Source: Phascolarctobacterium sp. (GTDB lineage Bacteria; Bacillota; Negativicutes; Acidaminococcales; Acidaminococcaceae). From it: a stretch of 63,942 nucleotides of DNA. The position numbers and the translations under genes were made by a program. The DNA lies in NCBI RefSeq assembly GCF_030531065.1, contig NZ_JAUNOQ010000002.1, positions 1 to 63,942 on the forward strand, read 5' to 3'. Positions within the stretch are counted from its first letter, which is position 1. Every line of letters starts with the position of its first letter. The notes under the pieces were generated by a model. It did no database searches and had not been told where the DNA came from. It was given only the letters and a program-made list of their open reading frames with translations. Positions 18,828 to 58,547 of this stretch are shown here, one piece after another.

Positions 18828-18992
18828 AACGACGATGTATCTTACAGGCAGTTCTTCTGGCTTCGCTTCCTCGCATATCTTACCTTCCCAGATGGATTTC
18901 CAGTGGCATCAACAAGATACGCTCCACGTTACAGCGGCGGGACCGTGCCGGACTTACACCGGCTTCTCTATTAAGCTCGCGCACCTGTAATC
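18828..18992 (-). promoter_or_regulatory. Cobalamin riboswitch 2 (full-length form)
   Basis: On the minus strand it reads GCCGGTGTAAGTCCGGCAC, then GGTCCCGCCGCTGTAAC, a large variable arm and the B12 box AGCCAGAAGAACTGCCTGT. These are the hallmarks of a class I cobalamin riboswitch. It is followed by the hairpin CCTG-CGAGAGA-CGGG and AGAGATGT, nearly the same as in riboswitch 1. It has its own promoter (19015-19043). A 400-base leader with further hairpins, including a 12-bp GCGGCG/CGCCGC stem near 18510-18540, leads to the terminator at 18457-18488 and then the MsrA-like - mutA - mutB - meaB operon. Confidence 0.92.
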
Positions 18993-19014
18993 TCAATATC
19001 AACTTGTTAAGTTA

Positions 19015-29432: not shown

Positions 29433-30665
29433 TTACGCCTTCTGATAATATTCCTGAATAATCTCCAGCAAAAAGTCTGCGCCGCGCTCGCCCATGAACG
29501 GCAGGTGACTGGCGATTAACGCTCCCTCCAGGAAAGGCGCGCTGATGCGCAGCTTAGTATTGCTGCCGTCGCACTGCAGCAGAGCGATATCGTCGCCCAT
29601 TACCAGCGTACGCTGCAAGGGCCGCAGCTGCGCCAGCCAGTCCTTCTCGTTTTCATAATGCACAACGCCCTCTGCCGGATCAGCCACATTTTTCAGCGAA
29701 TGAGCGCAAATCTTTTGCTCCACAGCTATGCCTGCTTCCTCAAGGAAGCTGCTAACGCCAACTACCGTATCGTACTCGCCCTTGACTGCCGCGCGCGGCT
29801 GCAGATTGCCGCCGCGCATCATACGCAGCATGCCCAGCATCCCTAGGCCTTTTTCCTTCATGTTAATACGCATCATTACCATGGGGTCGGGCGCAGCGCC
29901 GACGGCCTCGCCAACCTGCCGCAAAAAGCGCAGTGTTCCCTGATAGCCGTAGGGTGCGGCGTAAACATAGGGCGTACCGAACTGCTCCTGCAAAAGCTGC
30001 GCCGCAGCCAGACCTTCGCAGCTGATAACGATATTCACGGACGCAGCTCCCATCTCCGCAATTTCATCTACGGAGGTATTGCAGCACAGGCAGGCAATCC
30101 GCGACAGGCCAAAGCTTTCCTTGAGCAGGCTGTCAATTTCCCAGATATCGGAGGAAATACGGTAATGCCAGGCGGAAGCGCCGATAATATTATAGGTCAG
30201 CGGATGCTTGGACACGTCCTGCTTCGGCAGATTGCGCACCAGCAGCTTATAAGCCTCGCTGGTACCAACGCTGTAATCGCCCAGGAAGCCGCCCTGCTCG
30301 AAGGCTACCAGCTTCGCCTTCACCTCCTGCTGCATATAGCGGCAGACGCCCTTAATATCCGTGCCGATAACAGCAGTTACCGAGGAGGCTACCACGAAAA
30401 TCACCTGGGGCCCGTAATTTTTATCCAGCTCGATTAAGGATTCCTCTAAGCGCGTAACGTCGCCCATAACCACGTCGTCCTCGCTCATATGCGTGGTAAA
30501 TAAACGGTTCTGGAAGCGAATGCCCAAGCCGCCGTACAGGCCCATGCTATAGTGAGTAGTTCCGGCCGGACCGTATTCCAAAACAATGCTGCCCTGTACG
30601 TTGAGCAGGCTCCAAATAATGCCCATTCTGTCGGAAGGGACAGGTAAATATCTTACTAAGCTCAC
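29433..30665 (-). CDS. Nitrogenase-like component 1, beta (NifK/BchB-type) subunit
   Basis: A 410-residue nitrogenase component-1 family protein. Markers are EYGPAGTTHYSMG (residues 30-42), where NifK has its second P-cluster Cys, and VASSVTAVIGTDI (92-104), where NifK has SxTCxxExIGDD. In both places the Cys is missing (Thr and Ser), and no cysteine is found near the first position either. A separate CLCC group occurs near residues 192-195. So this subunit can contribute no standard Cys cluster ligands. It overlaps the alpha gene by four bases (ATGA-type coupling) and ends the 12-kb import/reductase operon. It is not nitrogenase: no nifB, nifE or nifN genes are present. Confidence 0.85.
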   Translation of the reverse strand: MSLVRYLPVPSDRMGIIWSLLNVQGSIVLEYGPAGTTHYSMGLYGGLGIRFQNRLFTTHMSEDDVVMGDVTRLEESLIELDKNYGPQVIFVVASSVTAVIGTDIKGVCRYMQQEVKAKLVAFEQGGFLGDYSVGTSEAYKLLVRNLPKQDVSKHPLTYNIIGASAWHYRISSDIWEIDSLLKESFGLSRIACLCCNTSVDEIAEMGAASVNIVISCEGLAAAQLLQEQFGTPYVYAAPYGYQGTLRFLRQVGEAVGAAPDPMVMMRINMKEKGLGMLGMLRMMRGGNLQPRAAVKGEYDTVVGVSSFLEEAGIAVEQKICAHSLKNVADPAEGVVHYENEKDWLAQLRPLQRTLVMGDDIALLQCDGSNTKLRISAPFLEGALIASHLPFMGERGADFLLEIIQEYYQKA

Positions 30666-32158
30666 AATCCTGCCTCCTTTCTGTACTGCTTGGCTTTAGC
30701 CAAAGTCGCTTGCATTACCCTGAGCAAATAGCTTTGCACTTCAAAGCCAAGCATAGCGCCTGCGCCGTCGCTGTGAACTACGGCGATGCCCTTTGCCCGC
30801 AGACGGTCGTCAAATTCATGTCCCAAATACAGATAAGGATGCAGTACGTCGTAAACATATTGCAGCGGCGCGATATTGGCAGCCTTGCAGACATAAGGGT
30901 CGGTAAAACGCAGAATATCGGCCACATCAGGGTTATCCTCAGTAAAATGATTGCTTTGCACCAGCTGAGGCTCCATACCCAGCAGGCACAAATAACGGTT
31001 CAGCTCGAAGCAGTCGTAGGGAGTATTGCCGTAAATATAGGGAACGCCCTGCAGCTCGCCCTTAGCGGCGGCTTCCAGCTCCTTGCTCTTACTGTATAAT
31101 TCCTGCACCTCCTGGGGCAGAGGCAGCTCCAGATAAGCAAACAGCTTTTGGTAGCTTTCCCTGATTCTTTCCGGGTCGGCAAATTTATTAAAGTACACAT
31201 AGGGCGTACCGAAGCGCTTTTCCATAGCCTTGGCCAGAGGCAAGGCAATATCGTGCACTACGATATTAACCTTGGCTGCGGCAGCCTGCTTAATTTCTTC
31301 AACGGTGCAGCCGCTGGGCAGCTGCATACCAATCTTCACGCCGGATTTTTGCAGCATGGCGTAAAGCTCGGTGGACGAAAAATTGCCCATGCGCTGACCC
31401 ATAACATTGACGGAACCGTTGCCGGGAACCTCCTCCATCAAATCAAGGCAGGCGCTGATAGCTCGCTCCAGCCCGGGGAAATGGTCCTCGCATTTGAAAT
31501 GCTCCGTATGCACCGCCATCACGGGAAGATGATACTGGGCGCTTAATTCTTCGGCAATGGAGTCGTAATCATCGCCGATAACCTCGATAACGCAGGTCGT
31601 AACCAGCATAACGCATTCCGGCTTGTATTCCTCCATCATTTCCTTGAAGGCACGGTGCATCATCTCACTGCTGCCGAAGGTAACGTCGTGGCTGTCCAAA
31701 ACTACGGAAACACAACGCCCGCCTACGCCGCCGAAATTATCGTTAATGGTCAGGCTCTTAGTATAATAGCTGCATTCGTCGGTGCCCACGATAACCAGCA
31801 GGCAGTCCTTAATGCCGCCGGCAGCCATCGCCGCGCCCATCAGCGGGCAGTGAGTGCCGGGAAAGAGCGCTTTCGTCAGCTGGGGCACGTCCTTAATTGT
31901 AGCCACCTGGCTCAAACGCTTGAGCCTGCCCAAAAGCTCTTTGCCGTCCATACCCTTAGCCAAAGGTGGCATGCCCATCTTCTGCGCCATCTTCAGCATT
32001 TCGTTCTTGCCGCCGGCCTTGGTCATCATTTTCATTATGGACGCCGTATCCGGCATGGGCTCGCCCTTAGCGCGCTTAGCCTTTACTGCTGCAATAGCGC
32101 TTTCGGGCATACCCATTTTACGCGCCATCGCCCACATTGCATCTTCTTTTAAACCCAT
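30662..32158 (-). CDS. Nitrogenase-like component 1, alpha (NifD/BchN-type) subunit
   Basis: A 498-residue nitrogenase component-1 family protein. All three cluster cysteines are retained: C104 in HCPLMGA, C129 in TDECSYY and C189 in TTCVIEVIGDD. These correspond to the P-cluster/[4Fe-4S] cysteines of NifD and BchN. The N-terminal ~85 residues are an extra helical domain with two KMGMP repeats (MARKMGMPES, MAQKMGMPPL). The C-terminal domain lacks an obvious FeMo-co Cys/His pair. Expected to form a heterodimer or heterotetramer with the beta subunit and receive electrons from the NifH-like protein. Substrate unknown. Confidence 0.87.
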   Translation of the reverse strand: MGLKEDAMWAMARKMGMPESAIAAVKAKRAKGEPMPDTASIMKMMTKAGGKNEMLKMAQKMGMPPLAKGMDGKELLGRLKRLSQVATIKDVPQLTKALFPGTHCPLMGAAMAAGGIKDCLLVIVGTDECSYYTKSLTINDNFGGVGGRCVSVVLDSHDVTFGSSEMMHRAFKEMMEEYKPECVMLVTTCVIEVIGDDYDSIAEELSAQYHLPVMAVHTEHFKCEDHFPGLERAISACLDLMEEVPGNGSVNVMGQRMGNFSSTELYAMLQKSGVKIGMQLPSGCTVEEIKQAAAAKVNIVVHDIALPLAKAMEKRFGTPYVYFNKFADPERIRESYQKLFAYLELPLPQEVQELYSKSKELEAAAKGELQGVPYIYGNTPYDCFELNRYLCLLGMEPQLVQSNHFTEDNPDVADILRFTDPYVCKAANIAPLQYVYDVLHPYLYLGHEFDDRLRAKGIAVVHSDGAGAMLGFEVQSYLLRVMQATLAKAKQYRKEAGL

Positions 32159-32170
32159 TGCTTCCTCCTT

Positions 32171-32932
32171 TTATTCTACATCCTCGCTTAAAGCCAGCAC
32201 CTTGTCCGCCAGCTCCCGGTACACCTTTACCATGTGGGAATCGGGGACAAACTGGCTCACGGTGCCGCCCTGATTTTCCGCCAGCTGAATATCGCCGCTG
32301 CGGGGCACATACTGCACCACTTCCGTTTCAATTTCAGCGGCAGCCTTATCCACCAGCGCTCTTTCGTCCTCGATATTTTTCGCGTTCAGAATAATACCGC
32401 GCAGGCGCGCATAGCCGCGGCGGCCAAAATTCTTAATAGCCTGAGCGATATTGCTGGCGGCATACAGCGCCATCATTTCGCCGGAGGACACGATAAATAC
32501 CTCGCGGGCATAGCCGCCGCGAATAGGCATAGCGAAGCCGCCGCAAACCACGTCGCCCAATACGTCGTAAATAACTACATCCGGCTTATAAACCTCAAAA
32601 GCGCGCAGCTCCTCCAGCTTTTCAAAAGCGGAAATAATACCGCGCCCGGCGCAGCCGATACCGGGAGTAGGGCCTCCTGCTTCCACGCACAGCACGCCGC
32701 CGAAGCCGGTAAAGACGATATCCTCCAGCTTCAGCTCCTCGCCCTTGGCCTTCAGCTGCTCCAGCACAGTGGGAATACGCTTGCCCTCCATCAGGTTTTT
32801 GGTGCTGTCGGACTTGGGGTCGCAGCCTATCTGCATAACCTTATAGCCCTTCAAAGCCAGCGCCGCCGACAGATTGGACGTAGTTGTGGATTTACCAATG
32901 CCACCCTTACCATAGATTGCAATTTTTCTCAT
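32171..32932 (-). CDS. Nitrogenase iron protein-like reductase (NifH/BchL type)
   Basis: A 253-residue homodimeric ATPase/electron donor. The P-loop is GKGGIGKST (8-16). The two [4Fe-4S] ligands are C94 (GIGCAGRG) and C130 (DVVCGGF), with the switch residues around CDPKSDST. It should deliver electrons in ATP-coupled steps to the adjacent component 1. Twelve bases separate it from the alpha gene. It is preceded by AAGGAG. Upstream a palindromic element (32985-33112) separates it from the ABC gene. Confidence 0.92.
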
Positions 32933-32951
32933 GTGTTTTTCTCCTTGATTT

Positions 32952-32967
32952 TAATTTATATTTTATT
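32952..32967. repeat. 16-bp direct repeat, left copy
   Basis: TAATTTATATTTTATT is identical to 33121-33136 on the other side of the palindromic element. It is a candidate target-site duplication. Confidence 0.75.
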
Positions 32968-32984
32968 TATATAACATCAGCGAT

Positions 32985-33112
32985 AAACTCCCCCAGTCAC
33001 CTTCGGTGACAGCCCCCTCAATGAGGGGACAAAACTAATTTTTAAGTTTTTATTTTGCTCCCTCTTTGAGGGAGCTGGCATTTTGCGCAGCAAAATGTCT
33101 GAGGGAGTGTTT
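32985..33112. mobile_element. MITE-like palindromic element
   Basis: A 128-bp element with terminal inverted repeats (AAACTCCCCCAG on the left, CTGAGGGAGTGTTT on the right). Internal hairpins include CACC-TTC-GGTG, CCCCTCAATGAGGGG, TCCCTCTTTGAGGGA and CATTTTGCGCAGCAAAATG. This build matches the short non-coding palindromic elements widespread in Firmicute genomes. The flanking 16-bp repeats argue for insertion. It contains no ORF and would be mobilised in trans. Confidence 0.75.
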
Positions 33113-33120
33113 CTTGACTG

Positions 33121-33136
33121 TAATTTATATTTTATT
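33121..33136. repeat. 16-bp direct repeat, right copy
   Basis: Second copy of TAATTTATATTTTATT. It includes the stop codon of the ABC transporter gene (33132-33134), so the original sequence must have ended that gene here. Confidence 0.75.
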
Positions 33137-34835
33137 GATGATATAGCTCATAATAAGCGCCCTGCTTAGCCAACAGCTCCGCCTGCGTGCCGCATTCCAC
33201 CATGCGCCCGTTCTTGAGCACCACGATTTTATCGGCGCGGCTGACGGTGGAAAGGCGGTGGGCGATAATCAGCGTCGTCCTGCCTGCGGCCAGCTTATCC
33301 AGCTCCCGCTGAATCTGCTTTTCCGTTTTATTGTCCAAAGCCGAGGTAGCCTCGTCCAGAACGACGATGGGCGGATTTTTCAAAAAGACTCTGGCGATAG
33401 CGATGCGCTGCTTTTGGCCGCCGCTTAATTTTACGCCGCGCTCGCCAATTTCCGTCATGTACTTATCCGGCAGGCTTTCAATAAATTCGTCCGCAGCGGC
33501 AGACTTAGCCGCCGCTTCTATCTGCGCGTCGCCGGCGTCCGGATCGGCGTAAGCGATATTATATTTTACGGAATCAGAAAACAAAAAGACGTCCTGCTGC
33601 ACCAGGCCGATTTGTCGGCGCAAGGATTTTTGCGTATAATCGGCAATATCCACATCGTCCAACAGCACCCGTCCCTGCCGTGGCTCGTAAAAACGCAGCA
33701 AAAGATTAGCAAGCGTCGTTTTGCCCGCTCCCGTAGCGCCTACAAAGGCCACGGTTTCTCCAGGCTCAATAGTCAGATTAAGGTTTTTGATAACCTCCCG
33801 GCCCTCGCCGTAGCCAAAGGTGAGGTTTTCAAAAGCTATGCGTCCGCGAATATTTTTACACTCTATCGCGTTGGGACGGTCGGTAATTTCCTCCGGCTGA
33901 CGCATAATCTCGTAAAAGCGCTGAAAGCCCGCCATGCCGCGCTGGTACAATTCTGTAAAGGCCAGCAAGCGCATCAACGGCTTAATGAAGATACCAACGT
34001 ATAAGAAGAAAGCCACCAAATCGCTGAACAGCATTTCTCCCCGGCTGATGAGCAGCGTGCCGCCTACCAAAATAGCCACGTTGATAAAATTTGTAAAAAA
34101 GCCCATGCTGCTGATGAAATAAGCGCGTACTTTAAACGAAGCTTTGCGCACGGCCACGTAGGCGTCGGCCTTCCGCATAAAGCCGGACAGGTTTTCCTCC
34201 TCCGCCGCAAAGGCCTTTACCAAACGAATACCGCTCAAGCTTTCCTCCGCCCGCGCCGTCATTTCGCCCTGCTTCACCCTGTTGGCGAAATACGCGGCCT
34301 TCATTCTGCCGTTCAGGTAAATGGTGTGTACCGTCTTGCCTAACAATAAAACCGTTACCAAAACGCCCAAATACAAATTCATCCACATCATTATGGCCAT
34401 AGTGCCCAGCATGCTTAAAAGGCAAACGATAACGTCCGCCGGGGCGCGGAACGCCAGCTCGCCAATTTCTCCCAAGTCGCCCGTGATGCGGGAAAGCAGT
34501 TGTCCCGTTTTCACGCTGTCAAAAAAGCGGAAGGACATATTCTGAATGTGACTGAATAAATCGCGACGCATATCGTTTTCTATGCGCGCGCTCATCAGAT
34601 AACCCCAATAGGAAAAAACATATTGCAGCAGTAAATTGCCAAGATATAAGCCGCACAGCAATGCAGCCAGACGCATTACCTGCGCCACATTGTTCTGCGG
34701 CAGCTCCACATTCAGTATCTGACGCACCAAAGCGGGAAACAGCAGCTCCATTGCCGCAGCTGCCAGCGAGCCAAAGACAATGCCTGCCACAGCTAATTTA
34801 TAGGGCTTGTAGTATTTAAAAAATGTTTTGAGCAT
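33132..34835 (-). CDS. ABC transporter, fused membrane/ATPase (MsbA/multidrug type)
   Basis: A 567-residue half-transporter acting as a homodimer. Six transmembrane helices in residues about 15-300 (ABC_membrane type 1) are followed by the ATPase with Walker A GATGAGKTT, Q-loop, signature LSGGQKQR and Walker B VVLDEATSALD. Exporters of this type move lipids, drugs or peptides outward. In this operon it sits between the FecE-type ATPase (67 bp) and the NifH-like gene. It could export a metallophore or a product; it could equally be an importer of the siderophore YbtPQ type, since those share this fold. Confidence 0.87.
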   Translation of the reverse strand: MLKTFFKYYKPYKLAVAGIVFGSLAAAAMELLFPALVRQILNVELPQNNVAQVMRLAALLCGLYLGNLLLQYVFSYWGYLMSARIENDMRRDLFSHIQNMSFRFFDSVKTGQLLSRITGDLGEIGELAFRAPADVIVCLLSMLGTMAIMMWMNLYLGVLVTVLLLGKTVHTIYLNGRMKAAYFANRVKQGEMTARAEESLSGIRLVKAFAAEEENLSGFMRKADAYVAVRKASFKVRAYFISSMGFFTNFINVAILVGGTLLISRGEMLFSDLVAFFLYVGIFIKPLMRLLAFTELYQRGMAGFQRFYEIMRQPEEITDRPNAIECKNIRGRIAFENLTFGYGEGREVIKNLNLTIEPGETVAFVGATGAGKTTLANLLLRFYEPRQGRVLLDDVDIADYTQKSLRRQIGLVQQDVFLFSDSVKYNIAYADPDAGDAQIEAAAKSAAADEFIESLPDKYMTEIGERGVKLSGGQKQRIAIARVFLKNPPIVVLDEATSALDNKTEKQIQRELDKLAAGRTTLIIAHRLSTVSRADKIVVLKNGRMVECGTQAELLAKQGAYYELYHQ

Positions 34836-34902
34836 ACCTGACCGCCTTTTACCTCCAAAATTTTGCCCGCCTTAGAAAGCAAAGCAGAGCCGCGCGCCGA
34901 CG

Positions 34903-35679
34903 CTACAGCTCCTTAAATGCCAGCACAGGCTTGCTGCGTCCCGGAACACGGATAATATCGCATTCTACATTATAGACCTCCCGCAGCATTTTAGAGGTAA
35001 TAACCTCGTCGGGAGCGCCTTCGCTGTATTTGCGTCCATTCTTAATAACGATAATTTTATCGCTGACCTCCAGGGCCTGGCTTAAATCGTGCAGCACCAT
35101 CACTACGCCGATACCGGCCTCCTGGTTCAGCTTTTTCACTAAGCGCATGGTTTCCTGCTGATGAGCTATATCCAAATAGGTAGTAGGCTCGTCCAAAAAT
35201 AAAATTTCCGGCTGCTGCGCCAGCACCGTGGCAATCCACACTCTTTGCGCTTCGCCGCCGCTGCAGCCGTTGATGGATTTATTGCGCAGCTCCCAGGTAC
35301 CCGTAGCCTTTAAAGCCCATTCCACTATTTTATCGTCCGCGGCCTTGTTTTTTTCGTACCATTTTTGGTAAGGCACGCGGCCGTAGCCCACTAAATCCTT
35401 AACCTTAAAATCCGGAGGAGCGCTGTGCTTTTGCGGCAGCACGCCAATATAACGGGCCAGGGTTTTAGCCTCAATCTTTTTGATTTCTTCGCCGTTAAGA
35501 TAAACTGCGCCCTTAGTATATTTCAGCAGGCGCGTCAAAGCCTTCAGCACCGTGGATTTGCCGCTGCCGTTAGGGCCGATGATAGTGGTGATTTCACCCT
35601 TGCAGACGGTTATATCAAATTCGGGGACGATGACGCAGCCTTCATAGCCTATTTCCAGCTTCGTTCCTTTAACTTCCAC
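34903..35679 (-). CDS. Iron/cobalamin-type ABC transporter ATPase (FecE-like)
   Basis: A 258-residue ATPase. Walker A is GPNGSGKST (35-43), signature CSGGEAQRVWIATVLAQ, Walker B ILFLDEPTTYLDI, and the following HQQETMRLVKKL is typical of FecE/BtuD-type importers. Its start overlaps the permease stop by 11 bp. Works with the permease and lipoprotein encoded just upstream. Confidence 0.93.
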   Translation of the reverse strand: MEVKGTKLEIGYEGCVIVPEFDITVCKGEITTIIGPNGSGKSTVLKALTRLLKYTKGAVYLNGEEIKKIEAKTLARYIGVLPQKHSAPPDFKVKDLVGYGRVPYQKWYEKNKAADDKIVEWALKATGTWELRNKSINGCSGGEAQRVWIATVLAQQPEILFLDEPTTYLDIAHQQETMRLVKKLNQEAGIGVVMVLHDLSQALEVSDKIIVIKNGRKYSEGAPDEVITSKMLREVYNVECDIIRVPGRSKPVLAFKEL

Positions 35680-36673
35680 TTACTCTGCCCTTCTTTCTCA
35701 GCATATACAGGAAAAACGGTCCGCCGGTAGCCGCCATAACGATACCGACAGGAATTTCCATGCCGCTGATCAGCGTGCGTCCCAGGGTGTCGGCCGCCAG
35801 CAGCAGCACCGCGCCCAGCAGCGTGCTGACAGGCAGCAGCGCTTTATAGTCCGAACCCACCAGCATGCGGGCGATATGGGGCACTACCAAGCCGATAAAG
35901 CCTATCATACCGGCCACGGCCACAGTAGAAGCCGCTAAAAAAGCGCCCACTGCCGATAAAAACACCCGCACCCAGCTGACGTTAACGCCCAGACTGGTAG
36001 CCATTTCGTCGCCCAGCTGCAAAATATTGGCGCTTTTAATGCAGCACAGGCCTAAAATAATGCCCACGCTGGAATAAGCGGTAATAACGTAAATCTGCTG
36101 CCAGTTGCAGCCGGACAGGCTGCCGTTCATAAAGGCCAGCACATTAGCCAGATTATCGGAATTAAGCATCTGCAAAAAAGCGTTATAAGCGCCCAATACC
36201 GTGTTGATGGCCACGCCGGATAAAATTATTCTGACCGGGTCCACGCCGTCATGCCAGGCCATAACGTAAATCAGCACGCAAGCCAGCGCCGCGCCGCCAA
36301 AAGCAAACAAGGGCACTGCCGCCAGCATGGACGGAAACAGCAGCAGCACCGTAGTGGCCGCCGTAGCCGCACCGGCAGACACGCCGATAATGCCGGGATC
36401 CGCCAGCGGATTGCGCATAACTGCCTGCAGCAGCGCGCCGGCAACCGCTAAACAGGCGCCCACCTCGATAGCCATAATGAGCCGCGGCAGGCGCAGATTA
36501 TATACTACTACATGAATTGGCCCGCGCTCCTCGTACAGCAAGGCGTTGATAATCTGCGGCACGCTGTAATCGGCGCTGCCAATGCTCAATGCCAGCAGCG
36601 ATAAAGCCGCCAGTACGGCCAGCAGCGCCATGCAGACGGCGCTGACCTTTAATACATTTATATCACGTTTCAT
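35669..36673 (-). CDS. Iron/cobalamin-type ABC permease (FecCD family)
   Basis: A 334-residue, ten-helix FecCD permease. Conserved segments are RLPRLIMAIEVGACLAVAGALLQAVMRNPLADPGIIGVSAGAA and GFIGLVVPHIARMLVGSDY. This family imports siderophores, haem and cobalamin. It is three bases from the binding-protein gene. Confidence 0.95.
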   Translation of the reverse strand: MKRDINVLKVSAVCMALLAVLAALSLLALSIGSADYSVPQIINALLYEERGPIHVVVYNLRLPRLIMAIEVGACLAVAGALLQAVMRNPLADPGIIGVSAGAATAATTVLLLFPSMLAAVPLFAFGGAALACVLIYVMAWHDGVDPVRIILSGVAINTVLGAYNAFLQMLNSDNLANVLAFMNGSLSGCNWQQIYVITAYSSVGIILGLCCIKSANILQLGDEMATSLGVNVSWVRVFLSAVGAFLAASTVAVAGMIGFIGLVVPHIARMLVGSDYKALLPVSTLLGAVLLLAADTLGRTLISGMEIPVGIVMAATGGPFFLYMLRKKGRVSGS

Positions 36674-36676
36674 AGC

Positions 36677-37651
36677 TTACAGCTTTCTTTGCTCCAGCGT
36701 ATCGATCAAATGATTGATATCGTCGATAACGTCGATGCCGGTGCTGACAACATATTTAGAGGACAGATAAACCACGTTGCCCTCGCGGATAGCCTTAATC
36801 TGCTGCCAGTATTCCAGGCTGGCGGCAAAATCTGCTTCCATAGCCTTCTGGTGGTCCGCAGGGTTGGGCGCTGCGCCGACGCATACCAGCAGGTCGGGCT
36901 CGTAACTGATGGCCTGCTCCTTATCCAACATAACCATGCGGCTCTTATCGTTGCTGTAAACATTCTTATAGCCCAGCATCGTCAACATACTTCCCAAATT
37001 GGCGTCCTTGGTCTGGATGAAATGACGCGGAGGCGCAGATTGCAACACCATCACGGTTTTATCCTTATTGGCCTCGCGTTTAGCGGCCATGCGCTCGTCC
37101 AGCTTTTTAAAACGCTCGCTGATAGCCTGCGCACCCTTGCTGTCCTTGCCGAAAGCGTCGATAAGGGCGTTGGTCAAATTCTTAACGGATTGATAGTCCA
37201 CCATCGGGCCTGCGTCCACATAATAAACGGGAATATTTTGCTTTTCCAGCAGCTGGCCGTATTTATCCTTAGCGTAATAGCCCACCATAACTAAATCAGG
37301 CTCCAAGGCTACTACTTTTTCAATATCAAAATTATCCTGCATCGCTACGGTAAACTGCTGGGCGTTTTTCGCCAAATCCTCCGGCCATTTCATAATGCCG
37401 GTTTTAGGAACTCCCACCTGCGTCACGCCGATTTCATGCAGCGCCAACACGGGAGTAATGGTCAAAGAAACCACGCACTGCGGGCGCTGCTTCAGCACCA
37501 GCGGTTCCTTAAAGCCCTTGGCCTGCATGGAAGCCGGATAGTTAAGCGTTACCTTGCCGCCGCTTTCCTTAGCCTTATTATCGCTGCCGCAGCCTGCCGC
37601 CAGCATCAGCGCCATAAGCAGGCAGCCCATAAGCATAAATATTTTTTTCAT
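36677..37651 (-). CDS. Iron/cobalamin-type periplasmic binding lipoprotein (FepB/BtuF-like)
   Basis: A 324-residue type III binding protein. It starts with a lipoprotein signal (MALMLAAGC, lipobox Cys20). The first lobe has VVSLTITPVLALHEIG and LEPDLVMVGYYAKDKYGQLLEK. The long bridging helix includes AQAISERFKKLDERMAAKREA. The second lobe ends VSTGIDVIDDINHLI. It would bind the substrate delivered by the TonB receptor and pass it to the FecCD permease. Confidence 0.92.
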   Translation of the reverse strand: MKKIFMLMGCLLMALMLAAGCGSDNKAKESGGKVTLNYPASMQAKGFKEPLVLKQRPQCVVSLTITPVLALHEIGVTQVGVPKTGIMKWPEDLAKNAQQFTVAMQDNFDIEKVVALEPDLVMVGYYAKDKYGQLLEKQNIPVYYVDAGPMVDYQSVKNLTNALIDAFGKDSKGAQAISERFKKLDERMAAKREANKDKTVMVLQSAPPRHFIQTKDANLGSMLTMLGYKNVYSNDKSRMVMLDKEQAISYEPDLLVCVGAAPNPADHQKAMEADFAASLEYWQQIKAIREGNVVYLSSKYVVSTGIDVIDDINHLIDTLEQRKL

Positions 37652-37683
37652 CTTACGCCTCCTTCTATTCTCTATGATCGCCG

Positions 37684-38496
37684 TTACCGGTCAAGTCTGA
37701 ACCTGATAGGAATATCCCAGTAGCAGCGCACCTTCTGGCCGCTGCCGTTTTTAGCGCTGGTAAAGCGCCACTGCCTGCACGCGCGGATAGCCGAATTATC
37801 CAAAGCGCTGCTGCCGGAGGATTTCATCAGGGTAACCTCCTCCACCTTGCCGTCGGTGCCAATCAGCAGGCGCAGTACGGAAACGCCGTCAATATTAGCC
37901 TGCCGCTGATATTCCGGATACACCGGACTCACGCTGTAAACCACCCGCGGCGGCACCGCCGGTTGGCGCACAATGCCGCTGCCCGGCCCGACGCCGCTGC
38001 CAATGCCCGTACCGTGGCCGCTGCCATGACCGCCGCCGCTACCGCTGCCGCTTCCGGGGCCGGTGCCGCTGCCCGTGCCCGTACCGTGCCCGCTGCCATG
38101 GCCGCCGCCCGTGCCAGTGCCGCTGCCGCCCTTAACCTTGGCCGCCGCGCCCTCCTTAGGCATGGCCGCAGGCTTAGGCGTAGCTTTCCTAGGCCTTTCA
38201 GCAGCAAGCTCCCGTCGGCTTTCCGCGTAGCTGATTTCATCGCCAGTGAGGGAAGCAGCTTCTTTCTCCAACGCCGCAGCCTCTTCAACCTCGACGTCAG
38301 TTTCCTGTCCGCCGCCACCGCCGCCTCCTCCGCCGCCGGAGAAAAACATAACCTCGGTAACGTCGCTGGCATGATGCTGCTGCATAAACACGCCCGACAG
38401 GCTCAGCACAATAAACAATATAAAATGAATGACCAGCGAGCTGAAAAAGCCAAACCGCTCCCTAGCCTTGGCTTGCAAAAGATTGGCCTTTTTCAT
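37684..38496 (-). CDS. TonB energy transducer with Gly/Ser/His-rich linker
   Basis: A 270-residue TonB-family protein. It has one N-terminal transmembrane helix (FFSSLVIHFILFIVLSLSGVF), a G10 tract, a Glu-rich helix and a C-terminal TonB domain (PPRVVYSVSPVYPEYQRQANIDGVSVLRLLIGTDGKV ... ALDNSAIRACRQWRF). The periplasm-spanning linker, usually Pro-Lys/Pro-Glu rich, is here a Gly/Ser/Thr stretch at about 120-180 with two copies of GGGHGSGHGTG. Transmits proton-motive force to the receptor encoded in the same operon. It follows exbD by one base. Confidence 0.88.
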   Translation of the reverse strand: MKKANLLQAKARERFGFFSSLVIHFILFIVLSLSGVFMQQHHASDVTEVMFFSGGGGGGGGGGQETDVEVEEAAALEKEAASLTGDEISYAESRRELAAERPRKATPKPAAMPKEGAAAKVKGGSGTGTGGGHGSGHGTGTGSGTGPGSGSGSGGGHGSGHGTGIGSGVGPGSGIVRQPAVPPRVVYSVSPVYPEYQRQANIDGVSVLRLLIGTDGKVEEVTLMKSSGSSALDNSAIRACRQWRFTSAKNGSGQKVRCYWDIPIRFRLDR

Positions 38497-38497
38497 C

Positions 38498-38905
38498 TTA
38501 TTTACCGCCGTCCGTAGCTAAGCCAAATCGGCTCACGCCCGCGCCTTTCAGCTTATCTACCAATTCGATCACCCTGCCGTATTCCAGCCCCTTTTCTGCC
38601 CGGATAACCACAGCAAAGGACGGATTGTTTTTCTGCTCCATACGCGCCTGCATCACCAGCGAATTGATATCCGTCTGCGCGTCGCCCAAATAAACGCTGC
38701 CGTCGGCCTTCATGGTCACGGCAAAGGTGGTCGATGTATCGGTCGACGCATTCTGCGCCTGCGGCAGCTTAACCGGGATGGTTTTCAAATCCACCATGTA
38801 CATAGTGCTGAGCATAAAGAAAACCAGCAGGAAGAACATAATGTCGATCATGGGAATGATATTTAATTCCGGAACCTTGTGCGACCGCACATCACGCAAC
38901 TTCAT
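38498..38905 (-). CDS. exbD: Biopolymer transport protein ExbD
   Basis: A 135-residue single-helix protein. ELNIIPMIDIMFFLLVFFML includes the membrane Asp (about residue 22) essential for proton coupling. The periplasmic domain has VTMKADGSVYLGD and the final VIELVDKLKGAGVSRFGLAT. Partner of ExbB and TonB. Its start overlaps exbB by 14 bp. Confidence 0.94.
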   Translation of the reverse strand: MKLRDVRSHKVPELNIIPMIDIMFFLLVFFMLSTMYMVDLKTIPVKLPQAQNASTDTSTTFAVTMKADGSVYLGDAQTDINSLVMQARMEQKNNPSFAVVIRAEKGLEYGRVIELVDKLKGAGVSRFGLATDGGK

Positions 38906-39521
38906 GCTGCTCGCTCCTTGCTTCCGCCTCCAGCAATGCGCTGAAGCACTGCTCCATATCTGTAATCATATTGTCCAGCCAGTGATTGAAATAGGAATGG
39001 GCGCACAACGACAAAATCGCCACGCACAAGCCCGTCGCCGTAGCGATCAGCGCTTCGCCGATACCGCCGGTAATCGCCAGCGGCGCGCCTGCTTCCAGAT
39101 TAAAAATACTGAAAGCGCCTATCATGCCCACGATGGTGCCCAAAAGGCCCAGCAGCGGCGACATGGTAACGATAATGCTCAAATAGTCCAGCTTATTGCG
39201 CAGCTGCGCCAGTAAAATGCCTGCCTGACCTTCCAGGTAAGCGCTCTTGACGGCCCGACCGCCTTCCATCTGTGCGGCGGCGCACAAAATTCTGGCGCAC
39301 TCGCCGTCGGCATTCTTGGCAAAGGCCGTAGCCTCGTGTACGCCCTTAGTCAGCACCGTGCTGCAATAGGAGCGGACAAAAGCGCTGCCGCTGTCGCTGG
39401 CCTTATAGAACAAAAACCGCTCGACCGCAATGCTGATTACAGCTATGGAGCAGGCTAATAACGGCCACATGACCAGCCCGCCCTTATGAAAATACATGAT
39501 TGTCGCTTGAATTGCTTCCAT
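38892..39521 (-). CDS. exbB: Proton channel protein ExbB (MotA/TolQ/ExbB family)
   Basis: A 209-residue membrane protein with three helices. GGLVMWPLLACSIAVISIAVERFLF is first. LDYLSIIVTMSPLLGLLGTIVGMIGAF and GIGEALIATATGLCVAILSLCAHSYF form the conserved channel part. Drives the TonB system. A gap of 102 bp with a hairpin (39557-39583) separates it from the receptor gene. Confidence 0.94.
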   Translation of the reverse strand: MEAIQATIMYFHKGGLVMWPLLACSIAVISIAVERFLFYKASDSGSAFVRSYCSTVLTKGVHEATAFAKNADGECARILCAAAQMEGGRAVKSAYLEGQAGILLAQLRNKLDYLSIIVTMSPLLGLLGTIVGMIGAFSIFNLEAGAPLAITGGIGEALIATATGLCVAILSLCAHSYFNHWLDNMITDMEQCFSALLEAEARSEQHEVA

Positions 39522-39556
39522 AATTTGTTACCTTTCTCCCGCCAATTTTAAAGGAC

Positions 39557-39583
39557 GCCGCAACCGGCAGCACCGGCTGCGGC
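39557..39583 (-). terminator. Hairpin between receptor and exbB genes
   Basis: GCCGCAGCCGG and CCGGTTGCGGC pair almost perfectly on the minus strand, followed by GTCCTTTAAAA. The weak T-run suggests partial termination or 3'-end protection, which would make receptor mRNA more abundant than the rest of the operon. Confidence 0.6.
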
Positions 39584-39623
39584 ATTTGAGTTTGAAAATC
39601 TTAATTGCTTGCGCACTTCCGAA

Positions 39624-41723
39624 TTAGAAAGTCATTTCTGCGCCCACACGCCAGGTACGACCATAAATATCATAAGAATGAGTATCGTCCACAGTGAACG
39701 TCTTATCAAAGATATTATCGAGCGCTGCAAAAATGCGTAAATTCTTATTGATTTGCTTATTAACCGCAAAATTCAACGTGCCGTAGGTGTAATTATTATT
39801 GTAAACAGTGCTGCTCATACCGCTGGTACCGCCGCCCTGATACAAATAATCGATGTACCACTTAGCCCACAAAGTCATTGTCAAAGGATTTTCTTTAGCG
39901 TCGCTATAAGTCAGCTGCAACGTAGCGGTTTCTTTTGCTTTGTTATTCAAACGGCTATCGTCGCTCTTATCCTTAGCATCTAAATATTCAAAAGTACCTT
40001 TGAGACCCCAATGCTTATCAAACTGACGTCCGAGCATAAATTCAACGCCGTTAATCTGCGCTTCGTCCACATTGACATATTGCGAAACTGTCTGACCACC
40101 GCCCGAAGAAAGGATTTGCGAATCAATCAAATTCGTTACTTTATTATTGAAGTAAGTAATTTTGCCGTAGGTATTATCTTTCTCAGCTTCGTAACTGATA
40201 TCCCAGCTGGTTGCTTCTTCCGGCTCCAAATCCGGGTTGCCGTATACGTTGACGATACCGCCGCCCATAGAGCGATGCATTGCCATATACAATTCGCTAA
40301 TGGTGGGAGCTTTAAAGCTCTTACCCCAGTTAGCCTTCACGCGGCTATTATTGTTCAGCATATATGTCGCGCCGATTTTAGGAGTAGTTTCTCCTCCAAA
40401 GGAGCTATCGTGGTCATAGCGCAAAGCAGGAATAATATATAGTTTATCGTTGACCTGCCATTGGTCTTGAACGTATAAGGAATAAGTGTCAACATCTTTT
40501 TCAGAGTAATACTTGCTTACGCCGTTTTGGCTTACGCTATGGACTTTATCGCCGCCGTCGCCCAAACGAGTACCCTCGCCCGTAGTGCTGCGATATTCTG
40601 CGCCGTAAGTCAAAGTGTGTTTGTCGTCCAGCTTTTGGCTATTACGTCCTTCAATACCGTAAATAGTATATTTGGAATTATCCCAATCGTATTTAGGATA
40701 AGCCGACCCCATCATGTTTTCTAAAGAGACCATGCCCATTACGGGTCCCATAAATAATGTAGGGAACGTTTCTCGATTATTGTACTGCCTGTTCTCTTTC
40801 TCTAAGCGACTATAAAAAGCTCGCAACATATAATCGTTCTTTTCATCTCTCCCATTAAAGCCAAGACTGTAATCATATCTTTTATAATCATACCACTCTA
40901 CATTATCTTTTTTTGTATCAAGTGTAATTCCTCGATATGTGTATGAAGCATCTGCATACTTTGCTTTAGAATGTTCATTGTAATAACCTAAATCTAAAGT
41001 AATTTCTTTATCTTTCCCTACTTCATATGCGCCCTTAAAATTAAACTCCTGACGTGGGCCGTATAAATTGCTACCGCCGCTGCCGTTATTATATTCGCGC
41101 ACATTATTAAAACGCATATCAAAGTTGCCTTTGAATTTGCCTTGCTTGCCTAAATTGAAATTATACCAGTTGTCTATTTCCGTCGTACCGGTAGAAACGC
41201 CAACAGTAGTGCTTGGCGTATCTGAATTTTTAGTGATAATATTGATAACGCCGCCCAAAGCGTCGGAACCGTACATAGCGGAAGCCGCGCCACGGATAAT
41301 TTCAATGCGTTCAATATTACTCAAACTCATACGGGATAAAGCGTATACGTTTTGCGTAACGCTGGTATCTTCGCCAGCCATACGCTTACCGTCTACCAAA
41401 ATCAAAGTGTGGTTAGTGCTCATACCGCGAATCTGCACTTGATTGCCGGCCATACCGCTATTGGAAAGGTTCAAACTGTCGGACAAACTCAAAGCGTTAA
41501 GTACATTAGTAGCGCCCAAGGCTTGCATTTTTTCTTCGGTAACAACCTGCACTGCCATAGGCACTTTCTTTTCTTCCAGCGGCGTCTTTGTCGCCGTTAC
41601 CACGAACTCCTCGCCGCCGTAAATATCGAGGTCTCCTGCTTCAGCGGCAAAGCCGCTGTTGGCAATGGCGCTGCAAACGCACAGTGCCAGCAATGCCGCT
41701 TTCTTCTTACTCAATCTTTTCAC
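39624..41723 (-). CDS. TonB-dependent outer-membrane receptor
   Basis: A 699-residue receptor. It has a signal peptide (ALLALCVCSAIANSGFAAEA), a TonB box-like segment EEFVVTATKTP, a plug domain (about 45-155; IRGMSTNHTLILVDGKRM, IEIIRGAASAMYGSDALGGVINIITK) and a 22-strand barrel ending in aromatic Phe (WRVGAEMTF). Between strands lies NWGKSFKAPTISELYMAMHRSMGG...YGNPDLEPE, resembling the FRAP and NPDL boxes with an intervening His seen in haem and some siderophore/colicin receptors. So a haem, catechol or corrinoid-like ligand is possible. First gene of the operon, under a strong promoter with two palindromic boxes. Confidence 0.93.
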   Translation of the reverse strand: MKRLSKKKAALLALCVCSAIANSGFAAEAGDLDIYGGEEFVVTATKTPLEEKKVPMAVQVVTEEKMQALGATNVLNALSLSDSLNLSNSGMAGNQVQIRGMSTNHTLILVDGKRMAGEDTSVTQNVYALSRMSLSNIERIEIIRGAASAMYGSDALGGVINIITKNSDTPSTTVGVSTGTTEIDNWYNFNLGKQGKFKGNFDMRFNNVREYNNGSGGSNLYGPRQEFNFKGAYEVGKDKEITLDLGYYNEHSKAKYADASYTYRGITLDTKKDNVEWYDYKRYDYSLGFNGRDEKNDYMLRAFYSRLEKENRQYNNRETFPTLFMGPVMGMVSLENMMGSAYPKYDWDNSKYTIYGIEGRNSQKLDDKHTLTYGAEYRSTTGEGTRLGDGGDKVHSVSQNGVSKYYSEKDVDTYSLYVQDQWQVNDKLYIIPALRYDHDSSFGGETTPKIGATYMLNNNSRVKANWGKSFKAPTISELYMAMHRSMGGGIVNVYGNPDLEPEEATSWDISYEAEKDNTYGKITYFNNKVTNLIDSQILSSGGGQTVSQYVNVDEAQINGVEFMLGRQFDKHWGLKGTFEYLDAKDKSDDSRLNNKAKETATLQLTYSDAKENPLTMTLWAKWYIDYLYQGGGTSGMSSTVYNNNYTYGTLNFAVNKQINKNLRIFAALDNIFDKTFTVDDTHSYDIYGRTWRVGAEMTF

Positions 41724-41776
41724 AAAAACATCTCCTTACGCAAAGTAATTTTTGGTATATTAGGAACCGCCGCAAA

Positions 41777-41792
41777 GTTAGTTTTAACTAAC
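41777..41792. promoter_or_regulatory. Palindromic box GTTAG-N6-CTAAC, copy 1
   Basis: GTTAGTTTTAACTAAC is a perfect 16-bp palindrome in the receptor leader, 54 bp before the start codon. Same half-sites and spacing as copy 2. The half-site resembles DtxR/IdeR-type iron-repressor operators, but no Fur-type box is seen. Confidence 0.5.
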
Positions 41793-41901
41793 CCTACCAC
41801 AGCACGAAATATCAATTTTGCATTTGCAGCCCCCTCCACAAAGCTTCTGGCGGAAGAATGCCTATTTCCCTCTATTATCCCTTTGCTATCCTTGTATTTA
41901 T

Positions 41902-41917
41902 GTTAGATGCAGCTAAC
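41902..41917. promoter_or_regulatory. Palindromic box GTTAG-N6-CTAAC, copy 2
   Basis: GTTAGATGCAGCTAAC lies just past the predicted transcription start of the receptor operon. A repressor here would block initiation or early elongation. Confidence 0.5.
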
Positions 41918-41928
41918 TTCATAGAGTA

Positions 41929-41957
41929 ATTATCCTACACTAACATCATTTTGTCAA
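41929..41957 (-). promoter_or_regulatory. Promoter of the import/nitrogenase-like operon
   Basis: -35 TTGACA (41952-41957), 17-bp spacer, -10 GATAAT (41929-41934). It gives a leader of about 200 bases before the receptor gene. No other strong promoter is obvious until the NifK-like gene ends. Confidence 0.8.
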
Positions 41958-58089: not shown

Positions 58090-58224
58090 GAATTTTTATT
58101 AAAATACCGGCATAAAAATAAATACAACTCAGCTGACCTGGTCTTCGCCCCCACACTCGCCTGCTGGAAGGTTCGCTCCTAAGCCTTGCGCTCCCCACTA
58201 CTGCTTCTCTCGCGTATAATTTTT

Positions 58225-58251
58225 CTGCGGCAGGACTTACTTCTAAGCTGC
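58225..58251. repeat. 27-bp direct repeat, copy 1
   Basis: Begins CTGCGGCAGGACTTAC and ends TCTAAGCTGC. Copy 2 lies 70 bp further and differs at one base. Confidence 0.75.
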
Positions 58252-58294
58252 TCGGAGTGCATCCGTAAAAGCTTGCAAGCAGTCGCTGATTCCG

Positions 58295-58321
58295 CTGCGG
58301 CAGGACTTACCTCTAAGCTGC
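58295..58321. repeat. 27-bp direct repeat, copy 2
   Basis: Matches copy 1 at all but one position (C for T in the middle). May be an operator pair or the footprint of a local duplication. Confidence 0.75.
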
Positions 58322-58547
58322 ACCGTGCTCGCAGCCATATTTCCGGCTGTTTACGTGGATCGTTTCGCCTGCAACTGGCATCGACTTGCAACCACAGACC
58401 TGAGTTGTACACCTAATTATATTCCGGCAGGTTTTTTTTTGCAAGATACGCGCAGCTTTTGCTTTAATATTTTTCTAAAAAGTGATATACTTACTATACC
58501 TAACCTGTTCGGATAAGCTATTTTAGATAAATTTTGAGGGAACCGTT

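Follow-up and report, generated by a model that had tools for sequence, protein, structure and literature searches.

A nitrogenase-like reductase encoded with a probable heme importer in Phascolarctobacterium: a candidate oxygen-free route to heme iron

Heme oxygenases are unusable for strict anaerobes, and the route by which many gut bacteria obtain iron from heme is an open question. Within the nitrogenase superfamily, DPOR, COR and CfbCD are biosynthetic enzymes that reduce tetrapyrroles. ChuW/HutW provides a known oxygen-free route to heme iron, with ChuW using flavodoxin (PMC12670364), and the CobN-like BtuS of Bacteroides is a known case of anaerobic heme-iron release (PMC6460266). Here, we describe a putative eleven-gene operon in a 63,942-nucleotide stretch of DNA from a gut bacterium, Phascolarctobacterium sp. 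(contig NZ_JAUNOQ010000002.1, positions 1 to 63,942; hereafter the window), in which a TonB-dependent receptor, its energizing proteins and an ABC importer are encoded together with NifH-, NifD- and NifK-like proteins. On the evidence of gene context, we favor, at a probability of roughly 55%, that this operon serves iron-responsive heme acquisition, with the nitrogenase-like reductase freeing the heme iron. More tentative, at somewhat below even odds, is the broader proposal of a new catabolic branch of the superfamily, namely an ATP-dependent heme reductase found in iron-regulated heme import operons of both Gram-negative and Gram-positive gut anaerobes that releases iron without oxygen and without a radical SAM enzyme or a CobN-type chelatase. 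If true, this would be, to our knowledge, the first catabolic tetrapyrrole role in the nitrogenase superfamily.

The row of eleven minus-strand genes reported in the initial annotation was found intact, with every open reading frame (ORF) present from 41723 down to 29433, and Pfam and NCBIfam models agree with the family named there for each gene. In transcriptional order, the operon encodes the TonB-dependent receptor (699 aa, 39624–41723; top curated model TonB-hemin), ExbB (38892–39521; PF01618), ExbD (38498–38905; PF02472), TonB (37684–38496; PF03544), a substrate-binding lipoprotein (SBP, 36677–37651) that is IsdE-like by curated model and solved relatives, a FecCD-type permease (35669–36673; PF01032), a FecE-type ATPase (34903–35679) and an MsbA-type ABC exporter (33132–34835), the last two assigned by Pfam and curated models. 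These are followed by the NifH-like ATP-dependent reductase (H, 32171–32932; PF00142, 330 bits) and the NifD-like (D, 30662–32158) and NifK-like (K, 29433–30665) subunits, both assigned by Pfam and family alignment. The receptor and ExbB are separated by 102 bp, ExbB and ExbD overlap by 14 bp, and the gaps that follow are 1 bp to TonB, 32 bp to the SBP and 3 bp to FecCD; FecCD and FecE overlap by 11 bp, then come 67 bp to MsbA, 199 bp to H, 12 bp to D, and an overlap of 4 bp between D and K. The description of these genes as overlapping or less than 105 bp apart therefore holds along the ten-junction run except at MsbA–H. A sigma-70-type promoter, TTGACA-17-GATAAT, at 41957–41929 on the minus strand fits 11 of 12 consensus positions, in agreement with the one strong promoter proposed earlier; further, weaker promoter-like matches lie inside the operon. 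A second promoter-like site fitting 11/12 positions (29392–29364) lies downstream of the operon, directly ahead of tRNA-Gly (29347–29273). No terminator-like site was found on the minus strand within the 199-bp gap. This gap (32933–33131) holds stacked small hairpins, GCTCCCTC/GAGGGAGC and CCCCTCA/TGAGGGG, and resembles an inserted repeat element; it is present as a single copy in the window, and its pattern occurs in no fetched locus besides copies of the same place.

The association of reductase and importer was examined by running two peptide patterns, both derived from an alignment of D, against a collection of species genomes, a non-exhaustive search that gave 41 named loci (L and G numbers denote loci and genomes). 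They span Negativicutes, many Clostridia, Epulopiscium, Alkaliphilus transvaalensis and Spirochaetia; some are almost the same sequence (H does not differ between L034 and L035), annotation was by tblastn, and many contigs end within the flank. What recurs is a six-gene core, usually in the order H-SBP-FecCD-FecE-D-K. Where at least 4.5 kb lay upstream of D (n = 30), H, FecCD and FecE were each matched within 7 kb in 30/30 loci and the SBP in 28/30, the two misses being L066, with an SBP about 9 kb off, and L068, with a weak SBP behind a flavodoxin. Counted over all 41 loci, the matches are H 34, SBP 35, FecCD 36, FecE 37 and K 39. The neighbor linkage expected from the initial annotation is thus retained in related genomes, with H, FecCD and FecE near D throughout the 30 loci, but the 12-kb set does not recur as a whole: it is the six-gene core that does, while the TonB receptor is matched in 5/41 loci (four Negativicutes and one Spirochaetia) and the MsbA-type gene in 9/41, both in a lineage-dependent manner. 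Gene order also varies, being H-D-K-flavodoxin-SBP-FecCD-FecE in L070, rearranged as well in L066 and L068, and H-D-K-SBP-FecCD-FecE in a more distant relative on the Treponema saccharophilum plasmid pTS1 (L080). For controls, we took 40 regions of related genomes that surround other nitrogenase-like genes. FecCD was found in 0/9 control clusters with NifD, NifK and NifE (L085, L092, L094, L099, L112, L114, L118, L120 and L123) and in 0/3 NifHDK plus NifB stretches (L091, L098 and L100, Mar-like by guess). Because the core recurs among the 41 loci while the nine true nif clusters are without FecCD, the linkage goes beyond chance; FecCD also stands beside some other nitrogenase-like groups, and the coupling is therefore not confined to the window family. 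A match to an AraC-family regulator was seen on the minus strand in 20/41 loci (e.g., L038:209-922); in most of these clostridial loci it is divergent from H.

Evidence for iron control comes from the palindrome GTTAG-N6-CTAAC, which exact-site searching places at only two positions in the window, both upstream of the operon: 41902–41917 and, in the 5' leader, 41777–41792. Among loci with enough sequence, it lies at H or operon promoters in 20/33 and starts 76 to 206 bp before H in 17/33, a count that leaves out L040 (72 bp upstream only) and seven loci without an H match. The exact site is ahead of ExbB in L034 and L035 and ahead of the receptor in L036; L038, L064 and L073 have it before H with one mismatch. 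Chance would give 0.57 exact sites in the 653 kb of the 41 loci, and 34 with full flanks are listed. The source genome has four exact sites. Two are those at the operon; a third lies 38 bp upstream of a pair of feoA genes (Pfam), after which comes a feoB-type gene (by motif), and the fourth is 317 bp upstream of an unknown gene. In G008 (P. faecium), 15 exact sites were found against 0 in the reversed control, adjoining feoA and a feoB-type gene, an SBP, a TonB receptor, Fe/Mn-SOD, AhpC and DUF3793, together with several other genes without a clear iron link, and in G024 and G011 the palindrome precedes ORFs that are feoA-like by sequence likeness. The site is therefore shared between the operon and feoA-type genes in the source genome and three relatives, with the iron genes assigned by Pfam in the source genome and G008 and by likeness in G024 and G011, and the operon accordingly looks iron-regulated. 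Proteins of both Fur type and DtxR type are present. GTTAG-N6-CTAAC would then be the operator of an apparent iron regulon across Acidaminococcaceae and Clostridia, which makes the proposal directly testable.

The source genome (2.37 Mb), whose nearest named loci are those of Phascolarctobacterium and Acidaminococcaceae with D 65–68% identical, offers further context. Its only strong PF00142 match is the window H, at 330 bits, the one other match scoring 50.9 bits. CobN was not found in it, and HutW reached at best 199.6 bits against a cut-off of 400. Ferrochelatase (PF00762) gave no match in any of the 5/5 family-carrying genomes searched, this one included, and heme may therefore need to be imported. 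The same observation fits an explanation in which imported heme is a building block from which the reductase makes a modified tetrapyrrole cofactor, with no iron release, as would the biosynthetic character of DPOR, COR and CfbCD. We regard this as improbable, however, as the operator is common to feoA-type genes and in G008 also stands ahead of SOD and AhpC, pointing to iron supply, and the recurring core has no cofactor-synthesis gene.

The importer genes point to heme as the molecule carried. The window SBP scores best with the IsdE model (101.8 bits, next 60.1, BtuF 41.8), as does the SBP of L066 (239.3 bits), which also lies under the cut-off of 298.65. In an alignment of the window SBP with 12 of the 28 located SBPs, the IsdE model matches 13/13 (best E-value 4.9e-71); in other nitrogenase-like clusters, the IsdE score of the SBP is 38.8 bits (Sporomusa), 45.2 bits (a second cluster of the source genome) and 47.5 bits (Treponema). 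Among solved structures, IsdE (2e-8) and Lmo2184 (4.4e-8) are the best relatives, though by a small margin, as BtuF follows from 7.7e-7. At the positions of Met78 and His229, the axial heme ligands of IsdE, our own reading of the alignment finds the Met kept and the His replaced in the window SBP and both residues present in that of L066. Other versions of the locus include a NEAT domain protein and sortase (L066 and L068; Pfam, above cut-off) or ChaN (L037, with a 61% identical copy in L035), and a flavodoxin lies near D in 19/31 loci whose sequence extends 2.3 kb or more past D. The two flavodoxin copies scanned have BilS, a protein with a bilirubin role, as top model (89.8 and 117.4 bits, cut-off 155). 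The top curated model of the window receptor is TonB-hemin at 229.6 bits, short of the cut-off of 316.85, and the same model is best for the L029 receptor at 235.2 bits, also below it. The IsdE-type SBP and the NEAT, sortase, ChaN and BilS-like flavodoxin neighbors thus together indicate heme.

Several observations weigh against heme import and iron release. All of the heme evidence is guilt by association. The window SBP falls well short of the IsdE cut-off (101.8 of 298.65), its residue at the IsdE His229 position is not His, the models for dicitrate, PGF-CTERM and BtuF fit 13/13 SBPs as well, with weaker scores (at best 2.2e-22), and the SBP in the second cluster of the source genome likewise has IsdE as its top, if weak, model (45.2 bits). 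NEAT is seen in just 2/41 loci and ChaN in 2. The window receptor is not firmly of the heme type, with TonB-hemin under its cut-off, and among solved structures it is nearest to Cir, PirA and FepA, with BtuB and PhuR lower; for one P. faecium receptor, the top model is TonB-B12 (202.5 bits, cut-off 599.7). The short contigs L050, L051 and L061 place the SBP directly ahead of D with no FecCD or FecE between, the palindrome is absent near H in 10/33 loci even when one mismatch is allowed, and the source genome shows no genome-wide enrichment of it (4 sites versus 3 in the reversed control). Finally, other nitrogenase-like clusters adjoin siderophore-type receptors, scoring 339.6 bits on a Sporomusa plasmid and 227.5 bits in the second cluster of the source genome (cut-off 223.5).

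These last receptors, the siderophore receptors among the best solved relatives of the window receptor, a PF00756 esterase in the Sporomusa cluster and the operator shared with feoA-type genes would all suit the import of a ferric siderophore or other iron chelate, with the nitrogenase-like enzyme reducing its Fe(III) or the chelator. This alternative is unlikely in view of the IsdE-like SBPs of the family and the NEAT, sortase, ChaN and BilS-type flavodoxin neighbors, and an ATP-driven two-component reductase exceeds what a ferric siderophore usually needs. A corrinoid or other non-heme macrocycle as the substrate would draw on the inclusion of BtuC among FecCD permeases, the TonB-B12 match in P. 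faecium (202.5 of 599.7) and the cobalamin riboswitches elsewhere in the window, but the operon has no such riboswitch, its SBP scores 101.8 with IsdE versus 41.8 with BtuF, and its operator is of the iron type, which leaves this substrate very unlikely. A corrinoid was dropped as first-choice substrate because no cobalamin riboswitch lies at the operon and IsdE scores over BtuF. The two riboswitches themselves lie at 11854–11987 and 18830–19003 on the minus strand and enclose two methylmalonyl-CoA mutase genes and MeaB (12138–17774). Elsewhere in the window, a raiA RNA motif (184 bits) was found at 58124–58408 on the minus strand.

For the reductase itself, comparison with curated models gives moderate shortfalls for H and large ones for D and K. 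H scores best with CfbC (344.9 of 402), then with NifH (337.6 of 394.35), BchL (221.6 of 345.15) and BchX (199.4 of 331.2). The top model of both D (81.4 bits) and K (116.3 bits) is NifE, with a cut-off of 505.1; D reaches 74.5 of 653.55 with NifD and 44.6 of 419.95 with BchN, and K reaches 25.2 of 427.3 with NifK and 89.9 of 490.35 with BchB. The CfbD cut-off of 268.4 compares with 30.9 for D and 32.8 for K, and with the COR models K scores 46.1 and D 22.5 against the BchZ cut-off of 529. D and K therefore miss every curated Nif, Bch and Cfb cut-off (the lowest being 268) by a wide margin, and each of the 29 D members scanned is matched by the same 15 component-1 models. With D at 81 bits at most, K at 116 at most and H under its cut-offs, the reductase lies inside no curated characterized group, in keeping with the initial annotation; among the curated models, none bearing the Mar or Isr name gave a match. 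In trees of D and K, built from 17 of the 41 loci, the window and Nif/Bch references with long reference branches, the D family joins the Sporomusa D in one fork (89, drawn open) and the K family joins the Sporomusa K in another (98), with Nif and Bch outside both, but deep support is weak and the H tree gave no resolution outside the family. AlphaFold models of D and K (mean pLDDT 86.6 and 86.9) add that the top structural match of K is DPOR BchB (TM 0.83); structure comparison of D gave no preference inside the superfamily.

D residues C104, C129 and C189 align with BchN C29, C54 and C115 and are kept in 39, 40 and 40 of 40 rows, respectively, while K has Leu, Thr and Ser at the aligned NifK cysteines in 37–38 of 38 rows and hence no P-cluster cysteines (the alignments omit D below 370 aa, L069 and L073, and K below 370 aa, L045 and L051). 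The nitrogenase trait of P-cluster cysteines on both subunits is thus missing, with three on D and none on K. K contains the invariant motif GPAGTTH (T36, T37 and H38), and the Asp that serves BchB as a cluster ligand corresponds on our reading of the alignment to Thr (36 or 37), beside the invariant His38. Family-invariant residues of D are H220, C223 and H447, none of which the Nif/Bch references share, and H226, which among the references is shared by BchY only. On our reading, the H220–H226 region corresponds to the stretch lining the cofactor pocket in NifD and is therefore a candidate heme site. Codons 1–69 of D encode a Met-rich N-terminal extension that contains a pair of similar MA(R/Q)KMGMP motifs and is evident only in this protein and in L033/L028; an apparent extension in L038–L040 was rejected as an artefact of one tblastn alignment crossing a stop codon from FecE, and the D starts of L045 and L073 are similar to those of L038–L040.

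From the gene context and this cysteine pattern, we infer a DPOR-like heme reductase that would release iron. A different view would make the reductase a Mar/Isr-type enzyme for sulfur or carbon substrates whose only tie to the transporter would be common iron regulation. Membership of the same superfamily, the solved structure nearest to H (the iron protein of 9fmg, titled methylthio-alkane reductase complex) and a NifB-like radical SAM gene beside the second cluster of the source genome would be consistent with it. NifB, however, is missing from the core; it gave no match in G024 and only noise in G008 and Alkaliphilus (23–24 bits, cut-off 343.65), so that a NifB-derived cofactor is unlikely. 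Together with the loss of the K-side P-cluster cysteines and the presence of D and K near this type of transporter in 30/30 loci, this renders the Mar/Isr explanation quite improbable. NifB-like genes (291–323 bits) do occur in G000 and G006, beside other component-1 genes.

For the favored reading, iron acquisition from imported heme, the following sequence of events can be proposed. Judging by their families, the receptor and TonB-ExbB-ExbD would carry heme, or a closely related tetrapyrrole, through the outer membrane, after which the IsdE-like lipoprotein and FecCD-FecE would deliver it into the cytoplasm. The NifH-like protein would supply low-potential electrons at the expense of ATP, with flavodoxin as a possible donor in many clostridial versions, to a predicted interface [4Fe-4S] cluster held by the three D cysteines and a non-cysteine ligand from K. 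Electrons might then pass from this cluster to heme in a D/K cavity, possibly ligated by the invariant histidines or the cysteine of D, and reduction of the macrocycle would weaken iron binding and allow Fe2+ release; in some versions, what remains of the tetrapyrrole may be exported by the MsbA-type protein. In the initial annotation, an imported macrocycle or chelate was to be processed by the reductase. The linkage recurs and the reductase lies outside the curated groups, as that proposal had it, but action on the imported molecule stays inferential, and the proposal can be sharpened to heme-type iron acquisition. If true, this would give a function to an uncharacterized nitrogenase-like clade and possibly a new anaerobic way to obtain iron. 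By their titles, many of the named loci come from animal gut genomes, including that of the isolate Phascolarctobacterium faecium DSM 14760. None of the open PMC matches listed describes heme uptake that involves a nitrogenase-like enzyme (subscription papers and bioRxiv lay outside the scope), and the main text of a paper on C. difficile iron regulation (PMC6311696) does not contain "nitrogenase."

Related clusters of other composition were also encountered. In Acidaminococcaceae, L101, L103, L105, L106, L108, L109, L110 and L111 carry a second H-D-K group with a CobN-like chelatase, seven CobN copies being 62–76% identical to that of L103, and with a FecCD or SBP match alongside; this group may be another tetrapyrrole-processing system. 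CobN was matched in 0/41 window-family loci, and L113 and L119 have a similar H-D-K with no CobN within the stretch. The second cluster of the source genome (L007, C20:52000-70000) comprises a siderophore-type TonB receptor, two FecCD, an ATPase, an SBP, D, K and a NifB-like radical SAM gene; it has no NifH, its K contains an in-frame TAG, and adjoining ExbB/ExbD copies on the other strand are 76–78% identical to those of the window. The Sporomusa termitida plasmid pSPTER (L032) encodes an SBP, two FecCD, an ATPase, H, D, K and the PF00756 esterase; an AraC regulator and a siderophore receptor lie close by, and the cluster is a siderophore-type relative.

Compared with known systems, the window reductase resembles DPOR (BchLNB) in pairing H with two component-1 subunits, in the three D cysteines aligned with BchN C29/C54/C115 and in a K model whose top structural match is BchB. 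It differs in that D and K lie far below the BchN and BchB cut-offs, K on our reading has Thr where BchB has its cluster Asp, D has extra invariant His and Cys residues, and the enzyme is tied to an importer, whereas DPOR is tied to chlorophyll synthesis. CfbCD, the Ni-sirohydrochlorin reductive cyclase, shares tetrapyrrole chemistry, and CfbC is the top model of H; in contrast, the window has two component-1 subunits, with D and K at 30.9 and 32.8 bits against 268.4, and Cfb is described as being without a NifK homologue (PMC11423573). The Group IV enzymes MarHDK and IsrBHDK have the same H-D-K organization, and Isr, too, functions together with an ABC importer, SsuABC; according to PMC12552129 and PMC11423573, a B-type radical SAM gene accompanies both Mar and Isr, and nitrogenase-like cluster cysteines are retained in Mar, unlike the window core, which has no B-type radical SAM gene and whose K has no cluster cysteines. 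With ChuW/HutW and BtuS, the operon would share its presumed task, obtaining heme iron without oxygen, and flavodoxin also accompanies ChuW, but the enzyme is a different one and neither is part of the window cluster. The Isd heme transport system, in turn, resembles the operon in its IsdE-type SBP and FecCD-type permease and, in the L066 and L068 versions, in NEAT and sortase; no heme oxygenase was found among the eleven window genes by Pfam and curated models, and a nitrogenase-like enzyme stands in its place.

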